A stretch of 36,542 nt of DNA, taken from positions 1-36,542 of the IMG/VR virus record IMGVR_UViG_3300034957_000013; one strand, 5' to 3'. The translations under genes and the position numbers were made by a program. Source of the DNA: a virus. The notes under the pieces were generated by a model. That model worked only from the letters and a program-made list of their open reading frames with translations, searched no databases and had not been told where the DNA came from. This document shows, piece after piece, positions 529 to 9,211 of this stretch (position 1 is its first letter; every line of letters starts with the position of its first letter).

Positions 529-2106
529 GTGCCGGCCGACTTCGCCAGCATGCTGGCCGACCGCCTCGACGCCGAAGCGAACCCGCAGCAGCAGATCAAC
601 ACCACCGCCGCCCGCTGGTACAACGACCCCGCCGGATTCGCCACCGAATGCATCGCCTGGCCCGCCGGCCGGCGCCTGGCCCCCTACCAGGCCGAGATCC
701 TCGCCGCGCTCCCCATCCGCAAACGGGTCTCCGTACGCGGCCCCCACGGCCTCGGCAAATCAGCGGTCAGCGCGATCACCCTGCTGTGGTTCGCGCTGAC
801 CCGCGACGCCGCCGGAGTCGACTGGAAAGCGGTCACCACCGCCGGGGCGTGGCGGCAACTGGAGAAGTACCTGTGGCCCGAGATCCACAAGTGGGCGCGG
901 CTGATCCGCTGGGATGCCCTGGACCGGGTGCCCCTGGACGTACGCACCGAGCTCCTCACCCTGAACGTCAAGCTGCGCTGCGGGTCCGGGTTCGCGGTCG
1001 CGTCCGATGACCCCGAGCTGATCGAGGGTGCGCACGCCGACTCGATCCTCTACATCTTCGACGAGTCCAAGGCCATCTCCGGGGCCACGTTCGACGCCGC
1101 CGAAGGCGCGTTCTCCGGCGCGGGCGGCGAGCAAGGCACCGAGGCGTACGCGCTGGCCATGTCCACCCCCGGTGAACCCAACGGCCGGTTCTACGACATC
1201 CACCGCCGAGCCCCCGGGCTGGACCACTGGTGGGCGCGGCACGTCACCAAGGAAGAGGCCATCGCGGCCGGGCGCATCAGCCGAGAGTGGTGCGACCAGT
1301 GCCGCCTGCAGTGGGGCGACTCTGCGGTCTACTACAACCGCGTCGAAGGCGAGTTCTACTCCTCCGACGAGGACGGCGTGATCCCGTTGAGCTGGGTGGA
1401 ACTGGCGAACGAGCGGTGGAAGGCGTGGGACGAAGCCGGCCGGCCAACCCCGACCGGGATAGCCACCTGCGGGGTAGACGTGGCCCGCACCGGCGCCGAC
1501 AAGACCGTGATCGGTCTGCGGCTGGGCAACACCATCACCGAGCTGCGCCGGGCCAGCCGCGAAGACACCATGCAGACCACCGGCCGGGTCAAAGGGGTCC
1601 TGACCGCGAACACCTCGATGACCGCCGTGGTCGACGTCATCGGTATCGGTGCCGGGGTAGTCGACCGGCTCCGCGAGATGCACATGCCGGTCGAAGCGTT
1701 CAACGCGTCGGAAGGCACCAGCCGCCGTGACAAGTCGACCGAGATGGGGTTCGTCAACTGCCGGTCGGCCGCGTGGTGGGCGCTGCGGGAGATGCTCGAC
1801 CCGTCCTCGGGTGACGATGTGGCGTTGCCCCCGGACGACCGGCTGACCGGTGACCTGACCACACCCCATTTCAAGGTCACCTCGGGTGGTCGGATCCAGG
1901 TCGAGTCGAAAGACGAGATCCGTAAGCGGCTGGGCCGGTCCACCGACGACGGCGACACCGCGGTGATGGCGTTCTGGGTGCGGTCGGCGGGGTGGCACGA
2001 GGTGTACGGGATCGTGCGGTGTGAGCACTGCGACGAGCCGTTCATGTTGGCGTTGCACCCGGACCGGTGTCCGCACTGTCACAAGGCCCAGCCGGTGCCG
2101 GCGTAG
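529..2106 (+). CDS. terL: Terminase large subunit with C-terminal zinc ribbon
   Basis: This is the DNA-packaging motor: an ATPase plus a nuclease that cuts concatemeric DNA and pumps it through the portal. Walker A is GPHGLGKS at residues 71-78. Walker B is LYIFDE at 174-179, with the catalytic Glu at 179. A coupling-type motif STPGEPNGRF starts at about 212. The RNase H-like nuclease shows its acidic residues in GVDVAR (Asp317), VVDVIG (Asp369) and DDGDTA (473-476). At 525 residues the length is normal. The GTG start has AGGAG about 7 bases upstream, overlapping the previous stop. The odd part is the C-terminus: Cys498-x2-Cys501 and Cys514-x2-Cys517-His form a zinc ribbon after the nuclease, which is not part of the core fold. 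The gene is followed by a repeat array instead of the portal gene. Confidence 0.95.
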   Translation: MPADFASMLADRLDAEANPQQQINTTAARWYNDPAGFATECIAWPAGRRLAPYQAEILAALPIRKRVSVRGPHGLGKSAVSAITLLWFALTRDAAGVDWKAVTTAGAWRQLEKYLWPEIHKWARLIRWDALDRVPLDVRTELLTLNVKLRCGSGFAVASDDPELIEGAHADSILYIFDESKAISGATFDAAEGAFSGAGGEQGTEAYALAMSTPGEPNGRFYDIHRRAPGLDHWWARHVTKEEAIAAGRISREWCDQCRLQWGDSAVYYNRVEGEFYSSDEDGVIPLSWVELANERWKAWDEAGRPTPTGIATCGVDVARTGADKTVIGLRLGNTITELRRASREDTMQTTGRVKGVLTANTSMTAVVDVIGIGAGVVDRLREMHMPVEAFNASEGTSRRDKSTEMGFVNCRSAAWWALREMLDPSSGDDVALPPDDRLTGDLTTPHFKVTSGGRIQVESKDEIRKRLGRSTDDGDTAVMAFWVRSAGWHEVYGIVRCEHCDEPFMLALHPDRCPHCHKAQPVPA

Positions 2107-2136
2107 ACGGCACAGCACCGGGGGTATGGTGGTGGG

Positions 2137-2485
2137 GCCCGCGTGCCGGCTTTGTAGGTGCGGCTGCTGACAACCCGGCATGCTCCGCCCGCGTACCGGC
2201 CTTGTAGGTGCGACGCGAACGGACAGATACCCTGTCTGGGGCCCCTGCACCGGCGTGGTAGGTGCGGCTCGCAGTCTCGTGCCCGATGCCAGCGCGCTGG
2301 CTTGGTAGGCGCGACGGACCCCAGCCGCAGCTGTGCCGGTGGCGAGCGCACCGAGCTGGTAGATGGCGATGGGTTCACTCGATCCCTGCCCGCGTACCGG
2401 CCTCGTAGGTACGGCTTGCGTGGTAGGGGTGCGGCCGGTGACCGGCCGTACCCGAACGCCCCCGCACCGGCTTGGTAGGTGCGCC
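2137..2485 (+). repeat. Hairpin repeat array 1 (reverse orientation)
   Basis: Most of the 408-base gene-free stretch 2107-2514 is an array of 28-bp imperfect repeats. Clear copies lie at 2137-2164, 2187-2214, 2241-2268, 2288-2315, 2388-2415 and 2458-2485. A decayed copy lies near 2345-2370, and a fragment near 2416-2435. Read on the + strand each copy is GCCCG followed by a six-base stem CGYRCC, a nine-base loop GGCNTNGTA and the return stem GGYRCG. Copies start 46-70 bases apart with unrelated sequence between them. The last copy ends about 17 bases before the ribosome binding site of the next gene. The same element occurs in opposite orientation at 4811-5375 and 5762-5789. Function is unknown; an RNA or single-strand hairpin is favoured by the base pairing. 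Confidence 0.9.
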
Positions 2486-2514
2486 GAACCCGCGAGGCCC
2501 GAAGGGGGGACACC

Positions 2515-2973
2515 GTGAACGGGTTCATCGACCGGGTGGCCTCGGCGCTCAAGGGCCACCCGCATCCGGGGCAGCGTTACCGGCACGGCTGGATCCCTGT
2601 CGCGCCCGGCGGTGCTGCCACCCGGGATCTGTCCCCCGACGAGCAGGACCTGGCCGATGAGTTACGCGGCGTGGGGGCGACCGTACACCCGGACGGGACG
2701 GTGCGGGCGTACCACCACACCACCCCGGCCGCAGCTGCGTCGGTGCGAGCGTCCGGTCTGCTACGTGGTGACGAAGACGGGGTGTTCTTCACCACGAAAC
2801 CGGGCGACGAGGCGCAGGCCGCCGGCCGCGGCGGGGCCATGCTGACGTTCGATGTGCCCCTGCACGCCATGCACCTAGACGATCTGTTCGACGACGAGGC
2901 GCACGTGCGTGTCCCGCTGCGCCGCGCGGGGGACAGCCTTGACGTGTCGCGGTGGCTTGTAGAGCACCCCTGA
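2515..2973 (+). CDS. ADP-ribosyltransferase-like protein
   Basis: The start is taken at GTG 2515, with AAGGGGGGA a few bases upstream; the frame extends upstream into the repeat array but has no ribosome site there. The 152-residue product begins with the signature NGFIDRVASAL, then HGWIPV, shared with three other large proteins in this window. The second half resembles the ADP-ribosyltransferase fold of the H-Y-E type: YHHTT (66-70) as the first strand with the histidine, a helix ending in ASGLL, then VFFTT (90-94) where the second motif residue would be Phe instead of Tyr, and FDDEAHVRVP with Glu128 as the possible catalytic glutamate. Enzymes of this fold move ADP-ribose from NAD onto a protein or nucleic acid, or remove an RNA 2'-phosphate. 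A phage copy could modify a host target early in infection. Activity is inferred from motifs only. Confidence 0.5.
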   Translation: MNGFIDRVASALKGHPHPGQRYRHGWIPVAPGGAATRDLSPDEQDLADELRGVGATVHPDGTVRAYHHTTPAAAASVRASGLLRGDEDGVFFTTKPGDEAQAAGRGGAMLTFDVPLHAMHLDDLFDDEAHVRVPLRRAGDSLDVSRWLVEHP

Positions 2974-2984
2974 CCGGCCCCGCG

Positions 2985-3016
2985 CACCCGAGCATAATTA
3001 CGCTTATGCTCGGGTG
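2985..3016. terminator. 13-bp perfect stem-loop after the ART-like gene
   Basis: CACCCGAGCATAA (2985-2997) pairs perfectly with TTATGCTCGGGTG (3004-3016) around the six-base loop TTACGC. It starts 12 bases after the stop of the ART-like gene. It has no T-run on either side, so a classical intrinsic terminator is not shown. A terminator of the kind used in high-GC bacteria, an mRNA end protector, or a dyad operator for a dimeric repressor would all fit. It is unrelated to the 28-bp repeats. Confidence 0.55.
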
Positions 3017-3141
3017 ATATCGATGACCGTGTGGTTACCGGCCGGTACGGGCGGCGGGTTTACCGAGGCCGCAACCCGGTAGCGGGGACGAACCGGACAC
3101 AAAACAGGGCCCCGGGGGCACCGACGCGGGAGGGGGCGCCC

Positions 3142-4014
3142 GTGGGGTTCATCGAGACGGTCCGTGCCGACCTGGTCAAGGTCGGCCCCAAAGGCTACGA
3201 ACACGGCTGGATCTACGTCGGCCCGCAAGCCGCTGGCGCCCGGATCCTGCACCCCACCCACGGGGCCGGCACCCTCACCCGCGCCGGGAAGCGCACCACC
3301 GGCGTCCAGTTCGACTCCGGCCACCACGCCGCGTTCGAGCACCAACCCGGCCCACGCAAACGCGGCGCCGCGCACTTCACCGAACGCACCCCCACCCCCA
3401 CCCGGGGCCGCCGCACACCGGCGCGCCCTGCGGTCGGGTCGTACACCGACGAAGACCTCGCCGACCACTTCCACGAGCTGTCCTCCGCCGACCGCCTCGA
3501 CGAACCCCGCACCCGTGAGGTCCTGGCCGAGATGGAACGCCGCGACGCCGCCGTCACCCCCCAGCAGCGGCACATCGACGCCCTGATCGCCAAAGGGGTG
3601 CCCTACCGCGACGCGTACGCCGAAGCCCACAACCTGGATCCGGACGAGCTCGACAAGCAAGAACGGGCCGCCCTGATCGACGCCGCCCGCCGGGCCGGGG
3701 AGACCCGTACCCAGACGCTGCGGCGCCTGTACGCCGAACACGTCCACCACCAGTACCTTGCCGCCGAGAACGCCTCCCGCGGGCACCTGCTCAACAAACG
3801 CGGCCAGGCCGCCGGGATCGACCCGATGACCCTGTTCTCCGGCCCGACGAACCGGGCCCGGGCCTACGCGAGCGAGGAACTGAAACGGTTCTGGGAACGT
3901 AACCGGCGCTCGACGTGGACACAGTTCCGGGACGAGACGGCGGGCGGGTTCCGGGAACGCGCGGCGGCCCGTGCTTCCCGTTCCCGTGGCAATGAGAGAG
4001 ACTTCGGGGTATGA
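3142..4014 (+). CDS. Tudor/SH3-like domain protein with shared N-terminal signature
   Basis: GTG 3142 is chosen because GGGAGGGGG lies just upstream and because it gives the same start (VGFI) as the gene at 15165. The product has 290 residues. Residues 1-27 are the signature GFIETVRADL, then GYEHGWIYVG. Residues about 30-70 (HPTHGAGTL, QFDSGHHAAFEH) resemble a small SH3/Tudor barrel of the kind found at the C-terminus of UvrD-type helicases. The first 70 residues are clearly related to the start of the 1188-residue protein at 15165. The rest is charged and helical with no catalytic motif that I recognise. The last bases overlap the start of the next gene (ATGA), so the two are translationally coupled. 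Function is unknown; a nucleic-acid-associated or virion-carried role is an inference. Confidence 0.7.
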   Translation: MGFIETVRADLVKVGPKGYEHGWIYVGPQAAGARILHPTHGAGTLTRAGKRTTGVQFDSGHHAAFEHQPGPRKRGAAHFTERTPTPTRGRRTPARPAVGSYTDEDLADHFHELSSADRLDEPRTREVLAEMERRDAAVTPQQRHIDALIAKGVPYRDAYAEAHNLDPDELDKQERAALIDAARRAGETRTQTLRRLYAEHVHHQYLAAENASRGHLLNKRGQAAGIDPMTLFSGPTNRARAYASEELKRFWERNRRSTWTQFRDETAGGFRERAAARASRSRGNERDFGV

Positions 4015-4190
4015 GCGAGCCGCGACGGTTCACCGCCATCCGCCAGGGCCGGCAGGCCGCCGAGCAGGGGCTGCCGGTGACCGCGTGCCCGTACCCGACC
4101 GACGGCCCGCAAGGGCACCTCGCCGCCGTGTGGGTCCGCGCCTACGCCAACCACCCGACCTCGTCCGCCCGGGTCGACTACCGGGGGTAA
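4011..4190 (+). CDS. Ribosome modulation factor-like small protein
   Basis: This 59-residue gene starts at ATG 4011, overlapping the previous stop by four bases. Its sequence follows the Rmf family pattern: an N-terminal helix IRQGRQAAEQG, then CPYP, then a second helix AVWVRAYANHP. In bacteria Rmf binds the 30S subunit near the anti-Shine-Dalgarno region and promotes inactive ribosome dimers. Similar small proteins are frequent in actinophages and might tune host translation or bind ribosomes during infection. The Gly-rich, short and basic character fits. It lies 8 bases before the tRNA gene, so two translation-related genes are side by side. The family match is by pattern only. Confidence 0.6.
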   Translation: MSEPRRFTAIRQGRQAAEQGLPVTACPYPTDGPQGHLAAVWVRAYANHPTSSARVDYRG

Positions 4191-4198
4191 GTACACCG

Positions 4199-4281
4199 GG
4201 AAGCTGGCGCCCGGCGGCGGGCAACCGGTCTTGAAAACCGGGCCGGGGTGACACCCGAGGGTTCGACTCCTTCAGTTTCCG
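4199..4281 (+). tRNA. tRNA-Ser(UGA), unusual D arm
   Basis: The acceptor strands GGAAGCT (4199-4205) and AGTTTCC (4274-4280) pair over 7 bp with one G-U, and the discriminator is G4281, usual for serine tRNAs. The anticodon stem CCGGT/ACCGG encloses the loop CTTGAAA with anticodon TGA at 4232-4234. A long variable arm (4242-4256) folds as GGGT-GAC-ACCC, as expected of a class II tRNA. The T arm is GAGGG-TTCGACT-CCTTC (4257-4273). CCA is not encoded. The D arm is abnormal: GCCC/GGGC with a six-base loop GGCGGC, lacking the usual A14 and A21. It would read UCA and UCG codons, which are rare to moderate in this DNA. The tRNA may be functional but odd, or decaying. Confidence 0.75.
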
Positions 4282-4303
4282 CTTGCGCACGGGGGTGACC
4301 GGG

Positions 4304-4543
4304 GTGATCGTCGTCCGTGGCAAACGGGCCGGGACACGTGGCCGGCTGGTCCAGTTCTGCAACGACTGGGTCATGGCGGACCTGGACGACGGGTCCGCGT
4401 TCGTCGGGTCACCGACGTCGGTGCTCCTCGACGACTTCGCCGAAGTGGCGGCGGTACGCGCCAGCCAGGACGTGGGCACGATGTGGCAGCAGTTCACCCT
4501 GTCCGATGACGGCGTCTTCGCTCGGCGCCCCCGGGCGGTGTGA
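4304..4543 (+). CDS. Small KOW/SH3-like protein, function unknown
   Basis: The gene follows the tRNA directly. GTG 4304 is preferred because GGGGG lies 8 bases upstream; GTG 4295 or TTG 4283 are also in frame. The 79 residues look beta-rich: VIVVRGKRAGTRGRLVQF, then VMADLDDGSAFV. This pattern of a Gly-turn between strands and an acidic LDDG turn is like KOW or other small SH3 barrels. The C-terminus is polar. The stop overlaps the next start (GTGTGA). I do not recognise a family and offer no function. Confidence 0.55.
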   Translation: MIVVRGKRAGTRGRLVQFCNDWVMADLDDGSAFVGSPTSVLLDDFAEVAAVRASQDVGTMWQQFTLSDDGVFARRPRAV

Positions 4544-4791
4544 CCGGGATGGCTGTGGCGTACCACGACGGGGGCCCGGTCCACGGGCTCACCCTGCGTA
4601 TCGAGGCTACCCCGCAGGTGCGGTTCTACCTGCCGGCGGCCGAGCGGGTGGTCCGTGGGTGGCTGCCGTTGGCGCGGTACGTGTTCGTGCCGCCGCGGGA
4701 CGGCAAGCATGTGCGGTACCGGTACACGGGTGTGCATCAGGTGATGGGCCCGCTGCCGGGGGCGCAGTCCGCGCCGGAGTGGTCTACGTAG
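4540..4791 (+). CDS. Small hypothetical protein
   Basis: It encodes 83 residues from GTG 4540, overlapping the stop of the previous gene by four bases. ATG 4549 is an alternative start. The sequence is beta-rich and basic (LTLRIEATPQVRFYLP, then RYVFVPPRDGKHVRYRY) with no cysteine pair, membrane segment or catalytic motif. The coupling to the upstream gene suggests one transcript. It ends 20 bases before the first copy of repeat array 2. The function is unknown to me. Confidence 0.5.
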   Translation: MTGMAVAYHDGGPVHGLTLRIEATPQVRFYLPAAERVVRGWLPLARYVFVPPRDGKHVRYRYTGVHQVMGPLPGAQSAPEWST

Positions 4792-4810
4792 ACTCGCCTC
4801 GGTGACCGGA

Positions 4811-5375
4811 GCCGCACCTACCAAGCCGGTGCAGGGGCTGTTTAACGCGTCGCCGCACCCACAAGGCCGGTGCGTGGGCCCGATCTGTTGAACTGTTGCA
4901 CGGTCGCACCTACGAAGCCGGCACGCGGGCCCGATCTGTTGAACTGGTAGAAGCCGCACCTACCACGCCGGTACGCGGGCTCGATCCTAGTGCCGTGGTC
5001 GCACCTACCATGCCGGTGCGTGGGCGCCGTTTCACGTAGACCACTTTGGGGCGCACCTACAAGGCCGGCACGAGGGCAGCGATGTGCCTACAGTCGCACC
5101 TGCCATGCCGGTGCGCGGGCGTTGACTCGCGTGAACCGCCTGCCGCACCTACTACGCCAGTGCGTGGGCGTCGACCCGGGTCACCCAGAGCGTCGCCGTA
5201 CCTACCAAGCCGGTACGCGGGCGCGGGTTTGGGTTACCCTGCCGCACCTACCAGGCCGGTACGCGGGCGTCGGCCCGGGCTCAGTCGCATCCTATGACGC
5301 CGGTGCGCGGGCGTTGCCCACTCTACCCCGGGCGGTGTGGCGCCCGTGTCGTACCTACTACGCCGGTGCGAGGGC
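4811..5375 (-). repeat. Hairpin repeat array 2 (opposite orientation)
   Basis: This array fills the gene-free stretch 4792-5415. Twelve 28-bp copies start at 4811, 4852, 4903, 4953, 4998, 5050, 5093, 5142, 5195, 5241, 5284 and 5348; the copy at 5284 has one extra base. On the + strand each reads GYCGYACC, then loop TACNANGCC, then GGYRCGNGGGC. Spacers are 13-35 bases and mostly unrelated, but those after the second and third copies share GATCTGTTGAACTG, which points to tandem duplication. Pairs in the stem co-vary: CGCACC with GGTGCG in some copies, CGTACC with GGTACG in others. Imperfect copies mostly become G-U pairs when read on the minus strand. No cas gene is near. Function is unknown. 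Confidence 0.92.
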
Positions 5376-5415
5376 GTCCATGCACCGTACCGCACCCCGG
5401 GGGGAGGTCGGTGTC

Positions 5416-5754
5416 GTGGCGCGTCGTCACCGCAGCCGTGCGGCGATCCCTGCCGAGTTGACTCCGCTGTCCGAGTGGGAGCCCGGCGACCCGGACCCGG
5501 TGGCCACCCACCCGCTGGGTGAGCCGTTGGAGTCGGACTCGTCGCTGACCCCCGAGCTCGCGGCGGGGGTTGCCCGGTTACCGGTGTGTCAGCACTGCGG
5601 CGGGTACCACAAGCGGGCGTGTCCGCGGGTGCGGTCGTTGCGGTTCCACCCGAACGGGACGATCGCGGCGGTGACGTTCTGGCGGACGTGGTCCACCGAC
5701 CATGTGTTGTTCCTCGACGGAGAAGACGACGACGGTCAGGGCGTTGCTCTGTGA
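5416..5754 (+). CDS. Zinc-knuckle small protein conserved near portal
   Basis: GTG 5416 is chosen because GGGGAGG lies 8 bases upstream; the frame runs back through the repeat array, which is not coding. The product has 112 residues: a Pro/Glu-rich N-terminal half, then a zinc-knuckle pattern CQHCGGYHKRACP with Cys58, Cys61, His65 and Cys69, then RFHPNGTIAAVTFW and an acidic tail. I recall proteins with this knuckle followed by a short beta segment in other actinophages close to the portal gene, but know no function for them. Binding of zinc is likely; contact with DNA or with the portal is speculation. Repeat copies stand just upstream and just downstream of the gene. Confidence 0.7.
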   Translation: MARRHRSRAAIPAELTPLSEWEPGDPDPVATHPLGEPLESDSSLTPELAAGVARLPVCQHCGGYHKRACPRVRSLRFHPNGTIAAVTFWRTWSTDHVLFLDGEDDDGQGVAL

Positions 5755-5761
5755 GTGCACA

Positions 5762-5789
5762 GCCGTACCTACGAGGCCGGTACGCGGGC
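5762..5789 (-). repeat. Isolated copy of the hairpin repeat before the portal gene
   Basis: This single copy has a perfect six-base-pair stem CGTACC/GGTACG around loop TACGAGGCC. It is in the same orientation as array 2 and lies 7 bases after the zinc-knuckle gene. It ends about 17 bases before the ribosome binding site GGGGGAGG of the portal fusion gene. The position is like that of the last copy of array 1 before the ART-like gene, so the element may influence the next gene. Confidence 0.9.
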
Positions 5790-5821
5790 CCCACCACCGT
5801 ACCCGGGGGAGGTGACCGGTC

Positions 5822-8800
5822 TTGGCTAAGAATCCGCGGGCGCTGGCGAAGGCCCTGATCGCCGCGAGCCGGGTGACCGGGACCCCGTTCAACGGCGGGT
5901 TCGACGCCGGGTCGGTCGGTACGAACACTCCGCAGGTGGCCGGGTACGACGCGTGGGCGTCGGGCCGGGTGACCGGGACGGGACTGCCGCGGGCGTTGTC
6001 GACGTTCCTGGACGGGTCGTTCGGGCCGTTGGCGCCGATCCAGCCGGTGGCCATTGACCGACCTGACCCGGATGATGGTCGGCCGGATCCGCGCCGGTGG
6101 CAGTACCCGGTCGGGTGGAACATGCCGATCGGGCCGCCCGGGTCGGAGGGTCTCAAGCTGGCCACGTTCGGGCAGCTGCGCACGATCGCGGACACCTACT
6201 CGGTGGCGCGGGCGTGTATCAGCCTGCGTAAGCAGGAGCTGGTGAGCCTTGAGTGGGATGTGGTCCCTACCAAGGCGGCGGAGAAGAAGCTGCGGGGTGA
6301 CAAGGACGGCCGGCGGGAGTGGGACGAGCGGCGGGCGAAGGTGATGCGGTTCCTGCGTAAGCCGGATCCGGATTACTTCTCGTTCGGTACGTGGTTCTCG
6401 GCGCAGTTGGAGGACGTTTTCGCGGTTGACGCGTTGTCGTTGTACCTGCACCCGCCGCGGGTGGCGGGTAAGGGTGCGATGGGGTCGAACTTGGCCGCGT
6501 TGGAGTTGATCGACGGTACGACGGTGCGGCCGATGATTAACCTGCGCGGTGGCAAGCCGGCGGCCCCGAACCCGGCGTATCAGCAGTACATGTACGGGGT
6601 CCCGCGGGTGGATCTCATGACGGTGATGTCGGGTGAGGACATCAAGGACATGGGGGACGCGAAGTACCGGGAGTACTCCGGTGACCAGCTCCTCTATTTG
6701 CCGTATGAGGCGCGGGATTGGACGCCGTACGGGTTCGCGCCGGTGGAGAAGTCCCTGGTCCCGATCCTGTCCGGGATGAACCGGCAGAACTGGCAGTTGC
6801 AGTACTTCTCGGAGGGCACGATCCCGGGGTTGTTCGTGACTACCGGTGACGAGAACGCGACGCCGACGCAGATCCGCGAGTTGCAGGATGCGTTGAACGC
6901 GATGGCGGGGGACCCCGCCTGGCGGCACAAGATCATTGTTTTGCAGAAGGGTTCGACGACCAGCCCGCAGGTGCCGGCCGAGCTGGCCGGCCACTTCGAC
7001 GAGATCATCATGACGCAGGTGTGCATGGGGTTCGACGTGATGCCGATGGAACTGGGCATCAGCCCCCGCACCTCCACGTCGCAGTCGTCGGGCGCGGCCA
7101 ACCAAATGGCGAAGAAATCGACGTCCACGCATGACCGTAAGGCGAACGGGCCGGTCCTCAAGCGGTTCATGGAGGTATTCGACTACGTGATCCAAGTCGT
7201 CCTGAAACAGGACGACATGCGGTTCCTCTTCGAGGGCTTGGAAGGCGGCGAAGACGAGGAAACCCAAGTCAACATCATCGTCAACAAGGTCAGCCACGGG
7301 ATGATGTCCGTCGACGAGGGCCGCATCGAACTCGGCGAGCAGCCGTGGGGTCTGCCGATCACCTCCGACCCGGTGTGGGCGACCGCGACCGGGCTGGTAC
7401 CGCTGGGCGGGATGGACCCGAAGACCGGGCAGGTGCCCCCTCCGCCGCTGCCACCCGGCACCCCGGCACCACCCGGCACCCCGGGTTCGGGTGCGAAGCC
7501 GCCGGCGGCCGGCCCGGCCGCGACCACACCGGCGCACACCGGCGCCCACCAAACCGACCAGGTCATGGGCCGGCCCACCACGCAGGGAGCCACCAAAAGT
7601 GTCGACACGTTCGCCGCGCTCCGCGAACTCGACCTGATCCGCCGCCGCCTCAACAAAGGCGGCACCATCACCGGCTGGACAGCCGAACACATCCCGACCG
7701 AGGTGTTCGGTCGGCTGGCCGACGACATCGGCCGGGCCCCGCTGGCCGACGCGATCACCGCAGCCCGGGTGACCGTCAAAGCCATGGGCCACCGGCAACA
7801 CCGCGACCAGGTCTGCGCACCCGTGCAGGCCACCCTCGTGACCGCCCTGCACAACCTCACCGCAGGGGTCGGTGACGGCACCGTGTCCACGGTCGGGTTC
7901 GTTGACGCCGCCACCGCGGCGATGCGCGGTGCGTACCGGGACGCCCTGCACCTCGGTGCAGGGCGTGCCCTCGGTGCTCCCACGGTCGTCAAGGCGGCGG
8001 CGGGGGCCGGGGACGCGAACTGGGTTGACTCGTTCGGGGGCCGGTTCGCCCTGTACGCGGGGCAGGTACCGCAGGCATTCGAGCAAGGGTACGGGCTGGC
8101 CACCGTCGGGTCCGCGCAGGACCCGGACAACATTGTGGTCCGGTGGCACGCCAAACCCGGGGCGTGTGTGCTGTGCTCAACCCGCAACGGGCAGGCGTTC
8201 ACCGTCGGCGGCCTACCGGGGTGGCCCGGTGACGGCGGGTTCGGCAAACTCGGCGACGACGGCGAGGTCATCGGCACGAACGTGCTGTGCCTCGGCGGCC
8301 CGAACTGCCGGTGCCACCTGTCCTACGAGACGATCACCCCCGGGCAGGCGGTACCCGAAACACGACCGACCGTGCTGCCCGCCCCGGCACCCGGCACCGC
8401 CCCAGGCATGATCCCCCCAGGGGCGGTGCCGGGCCCCACCCCGGCGGCGATCGAACGCCACCACGACCTGCAGGACATGGTCTGGGCGTTGAAGACCCCC
8501 AACCCGCAGGCCGCCCTGGCCGAGGTGGTCGAACACATCGCTGACCGGGCCGCGCAACGGCAACGCCCGTACCTGATGGGCCTACTCAAGGCGGTGCTCG
8601 CGAAAGCGACGACCGCAGCCGAAGTCGCCGCGATCGTGGCCCTGGTCGTGGCCGCAACCAACGACGACGAGCAGGGGTCGGCCCAGGTCGACCCGGACAC
8701 GGCGACCGCGCTGGCCGCAGCACAAGGCCAGCCAGTCACCAAAGGCGCTGCGGACATCGGCGACCCGAACCCCGTCGACGCCGAACACGTGGTCAACCAG

Positions 8801-9211
8801 ATGCGGGCGAACTACCCCGACAAGGCGATCACGTGGATGCGCCGGGCCCGGTGGATCGGCCCGGTGCAGGTGCCCACGGACCGGGTTGACATGGACGACG
8901 CCGACAAGTGGGCGGCCACCACCGACAAGGCCCGGGTGAAACACTTCACCCGGCAGATCAAGGCCGGGGACAAGCTGCACCCGGTCGTCGCAGTGCAGGA
9001 ACCCGGCGAACCCCGCATCAAGGTGATCGACGGGCACCACCGCACGTTGGCGTACCGCAAGGCCGGCCTTCCGGTGACCGCGTACATCGGGTTCGTAGAC
9101 ACCGACGGCGGCCCGTGGGACCAAACCCACGTCTACCAGCACCACCACGGCGACGACCCGGCGAACAAAGTTGTACGTGCCAGCGAAGGAATTGATCCTG
9201 GACCCGGATGA
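5822..9211 (+). CDS. Portal - MuF - ParB-like fusion protein
   Basis: TTG 5822 is preceded by GGGGGAGGTGACC at a good distance. The 1129 residues hold three parts. About 100-535 is a siphovirus portal protein (DTYSVARACISLRKQELVSL; later RKANGPVLKRFMEVFDYVI), the ring through which DNA passes. A Pro/Ala/Gly linker follows (about 540-570). About 600-845 is a Mu gpF-like (MuF) head morphogenesis part ending with Cys782-x2-Cys785 and NCRCHLSYE (Cys829, Cys831), which fits a metal site. About 985-1115 resembles a ParB/sulfiredoxin-like fold: WIGPVQVP, then a conserved IDGHHRTLAY with Asp1070-Arg1074. MuF proteins often carry variable C-terminal effector domains. Portal and MuF are usually separate genes. 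The ParB-like part could bind nucleotide or cut DNA; this is untested. Confidence 0.88.
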   Translation: MAKNPRALAKALIAASRVTGTPFNGGFDAGSVGTNTPQVAGYDAWASGRVTGTGLPRALSTFLDGSFGPLAPIQPVAIDRPDPDDGRPDPRRWQYPVGWNMPIGPPGSEGLKLATFGQLRTIADTYSVARACISLRKQELVSLEWDVVPTKAAEKKLRGDKDGRREWDERRAKVMRFLRKPDPDYFSFGTWFSAQLEDVFAVDALSLYLHPPRVAGKGAMGSNLAALELIDGTTVRPMINLRGGKPAAPNPAYQQYMYGVPRVDLMTVMSGEDIKDMGDAKYREYSGDQLLYLPYEARDWTPYGFAPVEKSLVPILSGMNRQNWQLQYFSEGTIPGLFVTTGDENATPTQIRELQDALNAMAGDPAWRHKIIVLQKGSTTSPQVPAELAGHFDEIIMTQVCMGFDVMPMELGISPRTSTSQSSGAANQMAKKSTSTHDRKANGPVLKRFMEVFDYVIQVVLKQDDMRFLFEGLEGGEDEETQVNIIVNKVSHGMMSVDEGRIELGEQPWGLPITSDPVWATATGLVPLGGMDPKTGQVPPPPLPPGTPAPPGTPGSGAKPPAAGPAATTPAHTGAHQTDQVMGRPTTQGATKSVDTFAALRELDLIRRRLNKGGTITGWTAEHIPTEVFGRLADDIGRAPLADAITAARVTVKAMGHRQHRDQVCAPVQATLVTALHNLTAGVGDGTVSTVGFVDAATAAMRGAYRDALHLGAGRALGAPTVVKAAAGAGDANWVDSFGGRFALYAGQVPQAFEQGYGLATVGSAQDPDNIVVRWHAKPGACVLCSTRNGQAFTVGGLPGWPGDGGFGKLGDDGEVIGTNVLCLGGPNCRCHLSYETITPGQAVPETRPTVLPAPAPGTAPGMIPPGAVPGPTPAAIERHHDLQDMVWALKTPNPQAALAEVVEHIADRAAQRQRPYLMGLLKAVLAKATTAAEVAAIVALVVAATNDDEQGSAQVDPDTATALAAAQGQPVTKGAADIGDPNPVDAEHVVNQMRANYPDKAITWMRRARWIGPVQVPTDRVDMDDADKWAATTDKARVKHFTRQIKAGDKLHPVVAVQEPGEPRIKVIDGHHRTLAYRKAGLPVTAYIGFVDTDGGPWDQTHVYQHHHGDDPANKVVRASEGIDPGPG

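Follow-up and report, generated by a model that had tools for sequence, protein, structure and literature searches.

Two facing arrays of a degenerate 28-bp repeat stand between the terminase and portal genes of a phage, and we tentatively read them as two convergent non-coding RNA genes whose hairpins resemble helix 45, the last hairpin of 16S rRNA, and whose transcripts, to judge from the letters of the DNA, would most likely act as a multivalent decoy. A more specific form of this proposal—that the two facing RNA genes carry some 19 tandem mimics of the 16S 3' hairpin and titrate a maturation factor, an rRNA-attacking toxin, or the phage's own Rmf-like protein—is one that we hold more loosely and consider doubtful. 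If it were true, a phage would be imitating a helix of ribosomal RNA with RNA of its own, as a route to control host translation or, alternatively, to escape an rRNA-targeting defense; to our knowledge, no phage RNA that mimics an rRNA helix in this way has been described.

The window (the whole stretch of DNA analyzed) is an entire IMG/VR virus record of 36,542 bases, the one phage record from which the array is known. Its hosts are high-GC bacteria, probably actinobacteria. Its genes include those for terminase, portal, MuF, tape-measure, and tail proteins, with no early region in this fragment. What kind of element, then, are the repeats, and on which strand should they be read?

The Repeat Units

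The motif CGYACCTACNANGCCGGYRCG, with up to two mismatches allowed, occurs 18 times in the window: six times on the minus strand (2142-2483) and 12 times on the plus strand, where 11 copies lie in 4813-5370 and one lies at 5764-5784. With up to three mismatches, there are 20 matches in the window against 0.31 expected. Under a covariance model, 18 copies reach 39-47 bits, and a nineteenth, which carries one inserted base (5284-5312), reaches 27.5 bits; the rest of the window reaches at most 18.3 bits and holds no further convincing copy by this model, and one extra degenerate copy, near 2345-2372, was recognized by eye. The count first made from the sequence (six copies, twelve copies, and one at 5762 of a single 28-bp repeat) is thus borne out, as 18 strong copies and one with an insertion.

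All of these copies are confined to one 3.7-kb interval (2137-5789). Array 1 (2137-2485), with its RNA strand on the plus strand, has 28-nt units at 2137, 2187, 2241, 2288, 2388, and 2458 in addition to the degenerate copy near 2345. Array 2 (4811-5375), with its RNA strand on the minus strand, has its first six units at 4811, 4852, 4903, 4953, 4998, and 5050 and its last six at 5093, 5142, 5195, 5241, 5284 (the one with the inserted base), and 5348. The single unit (5762-5789, minus strand) and the unit at 2388 agree at every position over 29 nt. Conservation extends beyond the hairpin itself (GCCCNCGYRCCGGCNTNGTAGGTRCGRC on the strand complementary to the one first proposed), and the conserved unit can be written for the RNA strand as 5'-GCCCN-CGYRCC-GGCNUNGUA-GGURCG-RC-3', with GGCNUNGUA as the loop and with a nearly invariant GTAG that is internal to the unit.

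The units are 83% identical on average in pairwise comparison, whereas the 13 nt that flank them on each side are 25-29% identical, against 26% expected from composition. Units so alike among linkers that are effectively random look selected, and the pattern fits an old array in which units were kept while linkers drifted. The spacings do not fall in multiples of three, which means that the units do not form one reading frame. The period is 41-63, and the linkers measure 13-42 nt, a wider range than the 13-35 bases of the sequence-only reading, which was right about the degeneracy of the repeats and also right, given such degenerate units and uneven linkers, that they are unlike CRISPR.

The Strand That Pairs

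The hairpin with a six-base stem had been proposed from the sequence on the strand that pairs poorly. On the strand first chosen, 13 of the 102 stem cells are C·A or A·C mismatches, and 87% are paired; on the complementary strand, all 13 become G·U wobbles, and 101 of the 102 (99%) pair. In other words, 13 of the 14 deviating stem cells have turned to wobble pairs on the complementary strand. RNAalifold finds an eight-pair consensus hairpin on this RNA strand and only three unrelated invariant pairs on the opposite one. Changes are common on the arm where wobbles absorb them and few on the other arm, where compensation accompanies four of five. By the formal test, covariation is weak (shuffles did as well in 76 of 500 cases), and the asymmetry between the strands is therefore the stronger argument. 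When whole arrays are folded, the RNA strand of array 2 is not clearly more stable than shuffles (z of -0.35), and array 1 does better (z of -2.6); in context, the six-pair hairpin is predicted at 0.24 on the RNA strand vs. 0.23 on the other, and context lowers the hairpin probability on both.

Promoter-like elements fall on the same strand. Before array 1 (2103-2136, plus strand), GAC stands about 16-17 nt upstream of TATGGT (2125-2130), which ends 6 nt before the first unit; on the minus strand, TACGGT lies 8 nt 5' of the first unit of array 2 as read on its RNA strand (5376-5391) and again 6 nt 5' of the single unit (5790-5803). Thus, a -10-like element (TAYGGT) precedes the first unit of each run by 6-8 nt on the RNA strand, and the longer string GGTAYGGTG occurs three times in the window, at 2123 (plus), 5391 (minus), and 5803 (minus), each at the start of a run. 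TANNNT is found 5-9 nt upstream of 5 of the 19 units in the RNA orientation and of 0 of 19 in the other, against a background of 0.4% per position. These three elements are not fully independent, because two of them, those before the units at 2137 and 5762, have a common ancestry and lie in a duplicated 45-nt block (2122-2166, inverted at 5760-5804, 89% identical).

Could the units instead be sites in double-stranded DNA? We think this unlikely, and it is nevertheless the alternative that survives best. Each unit would be an imperfect dyad, CGYRCC-N9-GGYRCG, with an invariant central A, and a dimeric protein of the phage or the host would bind it for silencing, immunity, or replication, as happens at stoperators and repressor sites. 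The same Y and R positions are tolerated in both half-sites, pair covariation is no better than that of shuffles, folding energies in context do not favor hairpins, and units lie only in gene gaps, all of which such sites would lead one to expect. In this respect, protein-binding sites, one of the candidates of the sequence-only reading, fare well on their conserved half-sites and weak covariation and leave the strand asymmetry unexplained: 13 of 14 uncompensated arm changes keep pairing on one strand only, and the -10-like elements are on that very strand. We found no helical phasing in the unit spacings, and the match to helix 45 described below would go unaccounted for. The stoperators of cluster A mycobacteriophages are likewise many oriented sites in actinophage gene gaps; those of the L5 type, however, are 13-bp, asymmetric sites spread genome-wide (PMC9283540) and not tandem arrays, whereas here 28-bp tandem units occupy one interval.

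Likeness to Helix 45

In all three of the actinomycete 16S genes fetched, helix 45 reads CGUACC GGAA GGUGCG GC. The two-arm pattern CGYRCCGG, 0-12 nt, AGGTRCGRC, taken from the units, matches all three, and in the 2.8 Mb of other fetched loci, its only occurrences are in loci that motif scans had picked out. Among 40,000 random hairpin patterns as degenerate as this one, 4 matched 16S, and among 40,000 permutations of the true pattern, 6 did so; because the match turned up after other comparisons, we estimate its real weight to be lower, at perhaps one in several hundred. Over the 17 arm positions of helix 45, the units are 88.5% identical on average, and two units match at 17 of 17. The likeness is limited to the arms: the GGAA tetraloop, a KsgA substrate, is replaced by the larger loop GGCNUNGUA. 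The match lies on the same strand as is favored by wobble pairing and by the -10-like elements.

A first gapped comparison with 16S loci had given nothing above shuffles, the gap penalty having masked the loop insertion in helix 45. A BLAST search of the 16S 3' end against phages returned only contaminating rRNA and coding sequences matched by chance (primases of mycobacteriophages and a tail gene of a Rhizobium phage). A likeness to another 16S region was also considered and dropped.

A Multivalent Decoy?

RNA regulatory elements are the best supported of the three candidates originally put forward, on the strand opposite to the one then chosen. As we picture it, each RNA gene would start at the -10-like element before its first unit; array 1 would be transcribed rightward, as six or seven hairpins, toward the ART-like gene at 2515, and array 2 together with the single unit would be transcribed leftward against the late genes, with 13 hairpins in all. 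Every unit would fold with the arms of actinobacterial 16S helix 45 and a larger loop, and many such hairpins could hold a protein that recognizes the 16S 3' end. We infer the transcription, the folding in the cell, the partner protein, and the decoy role alike.

Why a decoy? CsrB is a multivalent decoy for CsrA, which binds GGA motifs in its hairpin loops, and many copies of one structured element among irrelevant linkers would suit the same function. The phage arrays resemble CsrB and RsmZ sponge RNAs in having many copies of one hairpin and unrelated linkers in one RNA; they differ in having no GGA motif in the loop (GGCNUNGUA), in being phage-encoded, and in forming two facing genes.

True mimicry would call for a partner that contacts the 16S 3' end, and candidates would be RsmA/KsgA, Era, an rRNA-targeting toxin, or the phage's own Rmf-like protein. 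KsgA/RsmA contacts helix 45 (PMC9032327), RMF binds 16S nucleotides just upstream of the anti-SD (PMC6177447), and MazF toxins attack the 16S 3'-end region (PMC5408214). The Rmf-like gene between the arrays lends the last of these candidates weak support. It may merely accompany its MuF neighbor, since Streptomyces phage Mojorita has an Rmf-like gene behind a MuF gene without the hairpin motif.

Two CRISPR-related comparisons bear on what the arrays are not. The units bear a partial likeness to type I-C CRISPR repeats, on the poorly pairing strand; we set this likeness aside for the wrong strand, the missing 3' tag, and a variable position 24. RNA anti-CRISPRs (Racrs) are, like the units, short structured elements behind promoter-like elements in a phage that mimic a host RNA. 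They are solitary repeats (PMC10651486), however, and here there are 19 tandem units with a likeness to 16S rRNA. A CRISPR array would have near-identical repeats and spacers of even length, and a Racr would be a solitary mimic of a known CRISPR repeat; the arrays, with degenerate units and linkers of 13-42 nt, fit neither.

Where the Arrays Lie

The repeats had at first been described as enclosing a terminase-portal island. They do not: terL (529-2106) and the portal gene (5822-9211) both lie outside the arrays, and the arrays have between them a set of inserted genes and a single core gene. That core gene is small (4549-4791, plus strand) and stands directly 3' of terL in five relatives; a second core gene, zinc-finger-like by eye from its CxxC (5416-5754, plus strand), lies between array 2 and the single unit. 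The portal gene has a long C-terminal region that ends in a ParB-like domain, and the gene after it has a NUDIX domain.

Relatives, whose terminases are up to 74% identical, keep the order terL, small gene, zinc-finger-like gene, portal, and in the five, hardly any space separates these genes: the gaps are about -1 to 50 bp, with a few apparent overlaps (some gene starts being estimated from alignment). The same three gaps in the window measure 2442, 624, and 67 bp: array 1 and the gene insert lie in the first, array 2 in the second, and the single unit in the third. Relatives with the same terminase and core genes have neither the repeat nor, as far as we found, any other degenerate tandem array. 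The arrays, that is, occupy gene gaps of one lineage. The absence of repeats from relatives with these genes had been expected to speak against a link with the island, but those relatives lack the gene insert as well, and the motif, rather than being scattered over the genome, is confined to this interval; a link of the repeats with the insert is, therefore, not rejected. In four relatives (L106, L112, L114, and L115), the stretch from terL to portal has other inserts, about 1.5-6.7 kb long, and the interval therefore looks like an insertion hotspot of the phage group.

Placement in gaps only, in both orientations, and absence from relatives would also be expected of a selfish or mobile palindromic repeat, REP/BIME-like, that acts as folded single-stranded DNA and has spread into operon gaps. 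REP/BIME elements are likewise short imperfect palindromes, and the nearly invariant GTAG of the unit recalls them. We regard this reading as improbable: the units are not dispersed, with all copies in 2137-5789, none elsewhere in the window, and no genome array by exact scan; GTAG is internal and not at the hairpin foot, whereas in REPs it stands at the 5' foot (PMC8266576); no REP transposase was recognized in the window; and randomized linkers between kept units speak of old selection and not of recent spread.

The consensus search proposed in the sequence-only reading brought no second array. Exact-seed scans of 2.9 million viral contigs (IMG/VR) and 85,000 genomes (GTDB), which can miss diverged relatives and may have left out records very near the window, found none. 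In IMG/VR, single-unit, two-unit, and flank-extended patterns gave only chance single matches or Ala-Tyr coding repeats. In the genome scan, a 25-base pattern had 0 matches, and a 21-base pattern had 81 single matches and no array. In 297 genomes of the class of an Actinomadura genome, two mismatches yielded 13 matches vs. about 10 for the reversed pattern, a level that chance accounts for. A search of 395 genomes with the covariance model, which scored few candidates in each, carries little weight; blastn of array 2 against plasmids and phages found nothing, and Rfam had no match on the arrays even at an E-value of 5.

Array 1 might, more improbably still, be a cis-acting leader that controls the ART-like gene, in the manner of a type III toxin-antitoxin system or a riboregulator, with array 2 as a second copy. 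A -10-like element, tandem units, and then an ORF at 2515 do follow one another, and the invariant 5' GCC could pair with the invariant loop GGC as a pseudoknot; these triplets, however, never vary. Measured against the defining features of type III systems and their ToxI RNA (PMC8860590), the putative -10-like element, the tandem structured repeats, and the ORF behind array 1 are alike; the variable linkers and unfixed repeat period, the lack of a terminator between array 1 and the ORF (2485-2515), and the lack of any ToxN-like family match are unlike, and behind array 2, there is no recognizable gene.

That the arrays are borders of a mobile cassette, with recombination between them moving or inverting the segment, is hardly credible, inverted arrays and the 45-bp inverted pair 2122-2166/5760-5804 notwithstanding, because the right array lies beyond one core gene (4549-4791) and the single copy beyond another (5416-5754), inversion would flip a core late gene, and no second cassette or similar bordered structure was found elsewhere.

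The Inserted Genes

Between the arrays, all on the plus strand, lie four inserted protein genes and a tRNA gene. The first encodes an ART-like protein (2515-2973), so named from motifs seen by eye; it has no Pfam, NCBIfam, or PADLOC match and no database relatives that we could find, and its predicted fold is of low confidence (pLDDT 44). The second (3142-4014) encodes a MuF C-terminus-like protein with head morphogenesis PHROGs, and the third (4011-4190) encodes a phage Rmf/CrpP-fold protein, with PF04957 and NF041887 above cut-off; the Rmf-like family is absent from 41 records of relatives. The same MuF/Rmf-like pair (3142-4190) in Mojorita suggests that the two moved as a unit. A tRNA-Ser gene (4199-4282, anticodon TGA) follows, which the tRNA-Sec model scores at 41 bits against a threshold of 47, and then a small gene that looks KOW/Tudor-like by eye (4283-4543, starting at 4283 or 4313) and has no family match.

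Directly after the ART-like gene is a perfect 13-bp inverted repeat (2985-3016; CACCCGAGCATAA-TTACGC-TTATGCTCGGGTG), which overlaps a promoter-like CTGACC-17-CATAAT (2970-2998) and is a candidate operator or terminator. Finally, an N-terminal module, GFI..VRADL.KVGPKGY.HGWI.VG, is common to four plus-strand proteins (at 2515, 3142, about 11457, and 15165), among them the ART-like and MuF-like inserts, and is perhaps a head-targeting signal for packaged proteins.
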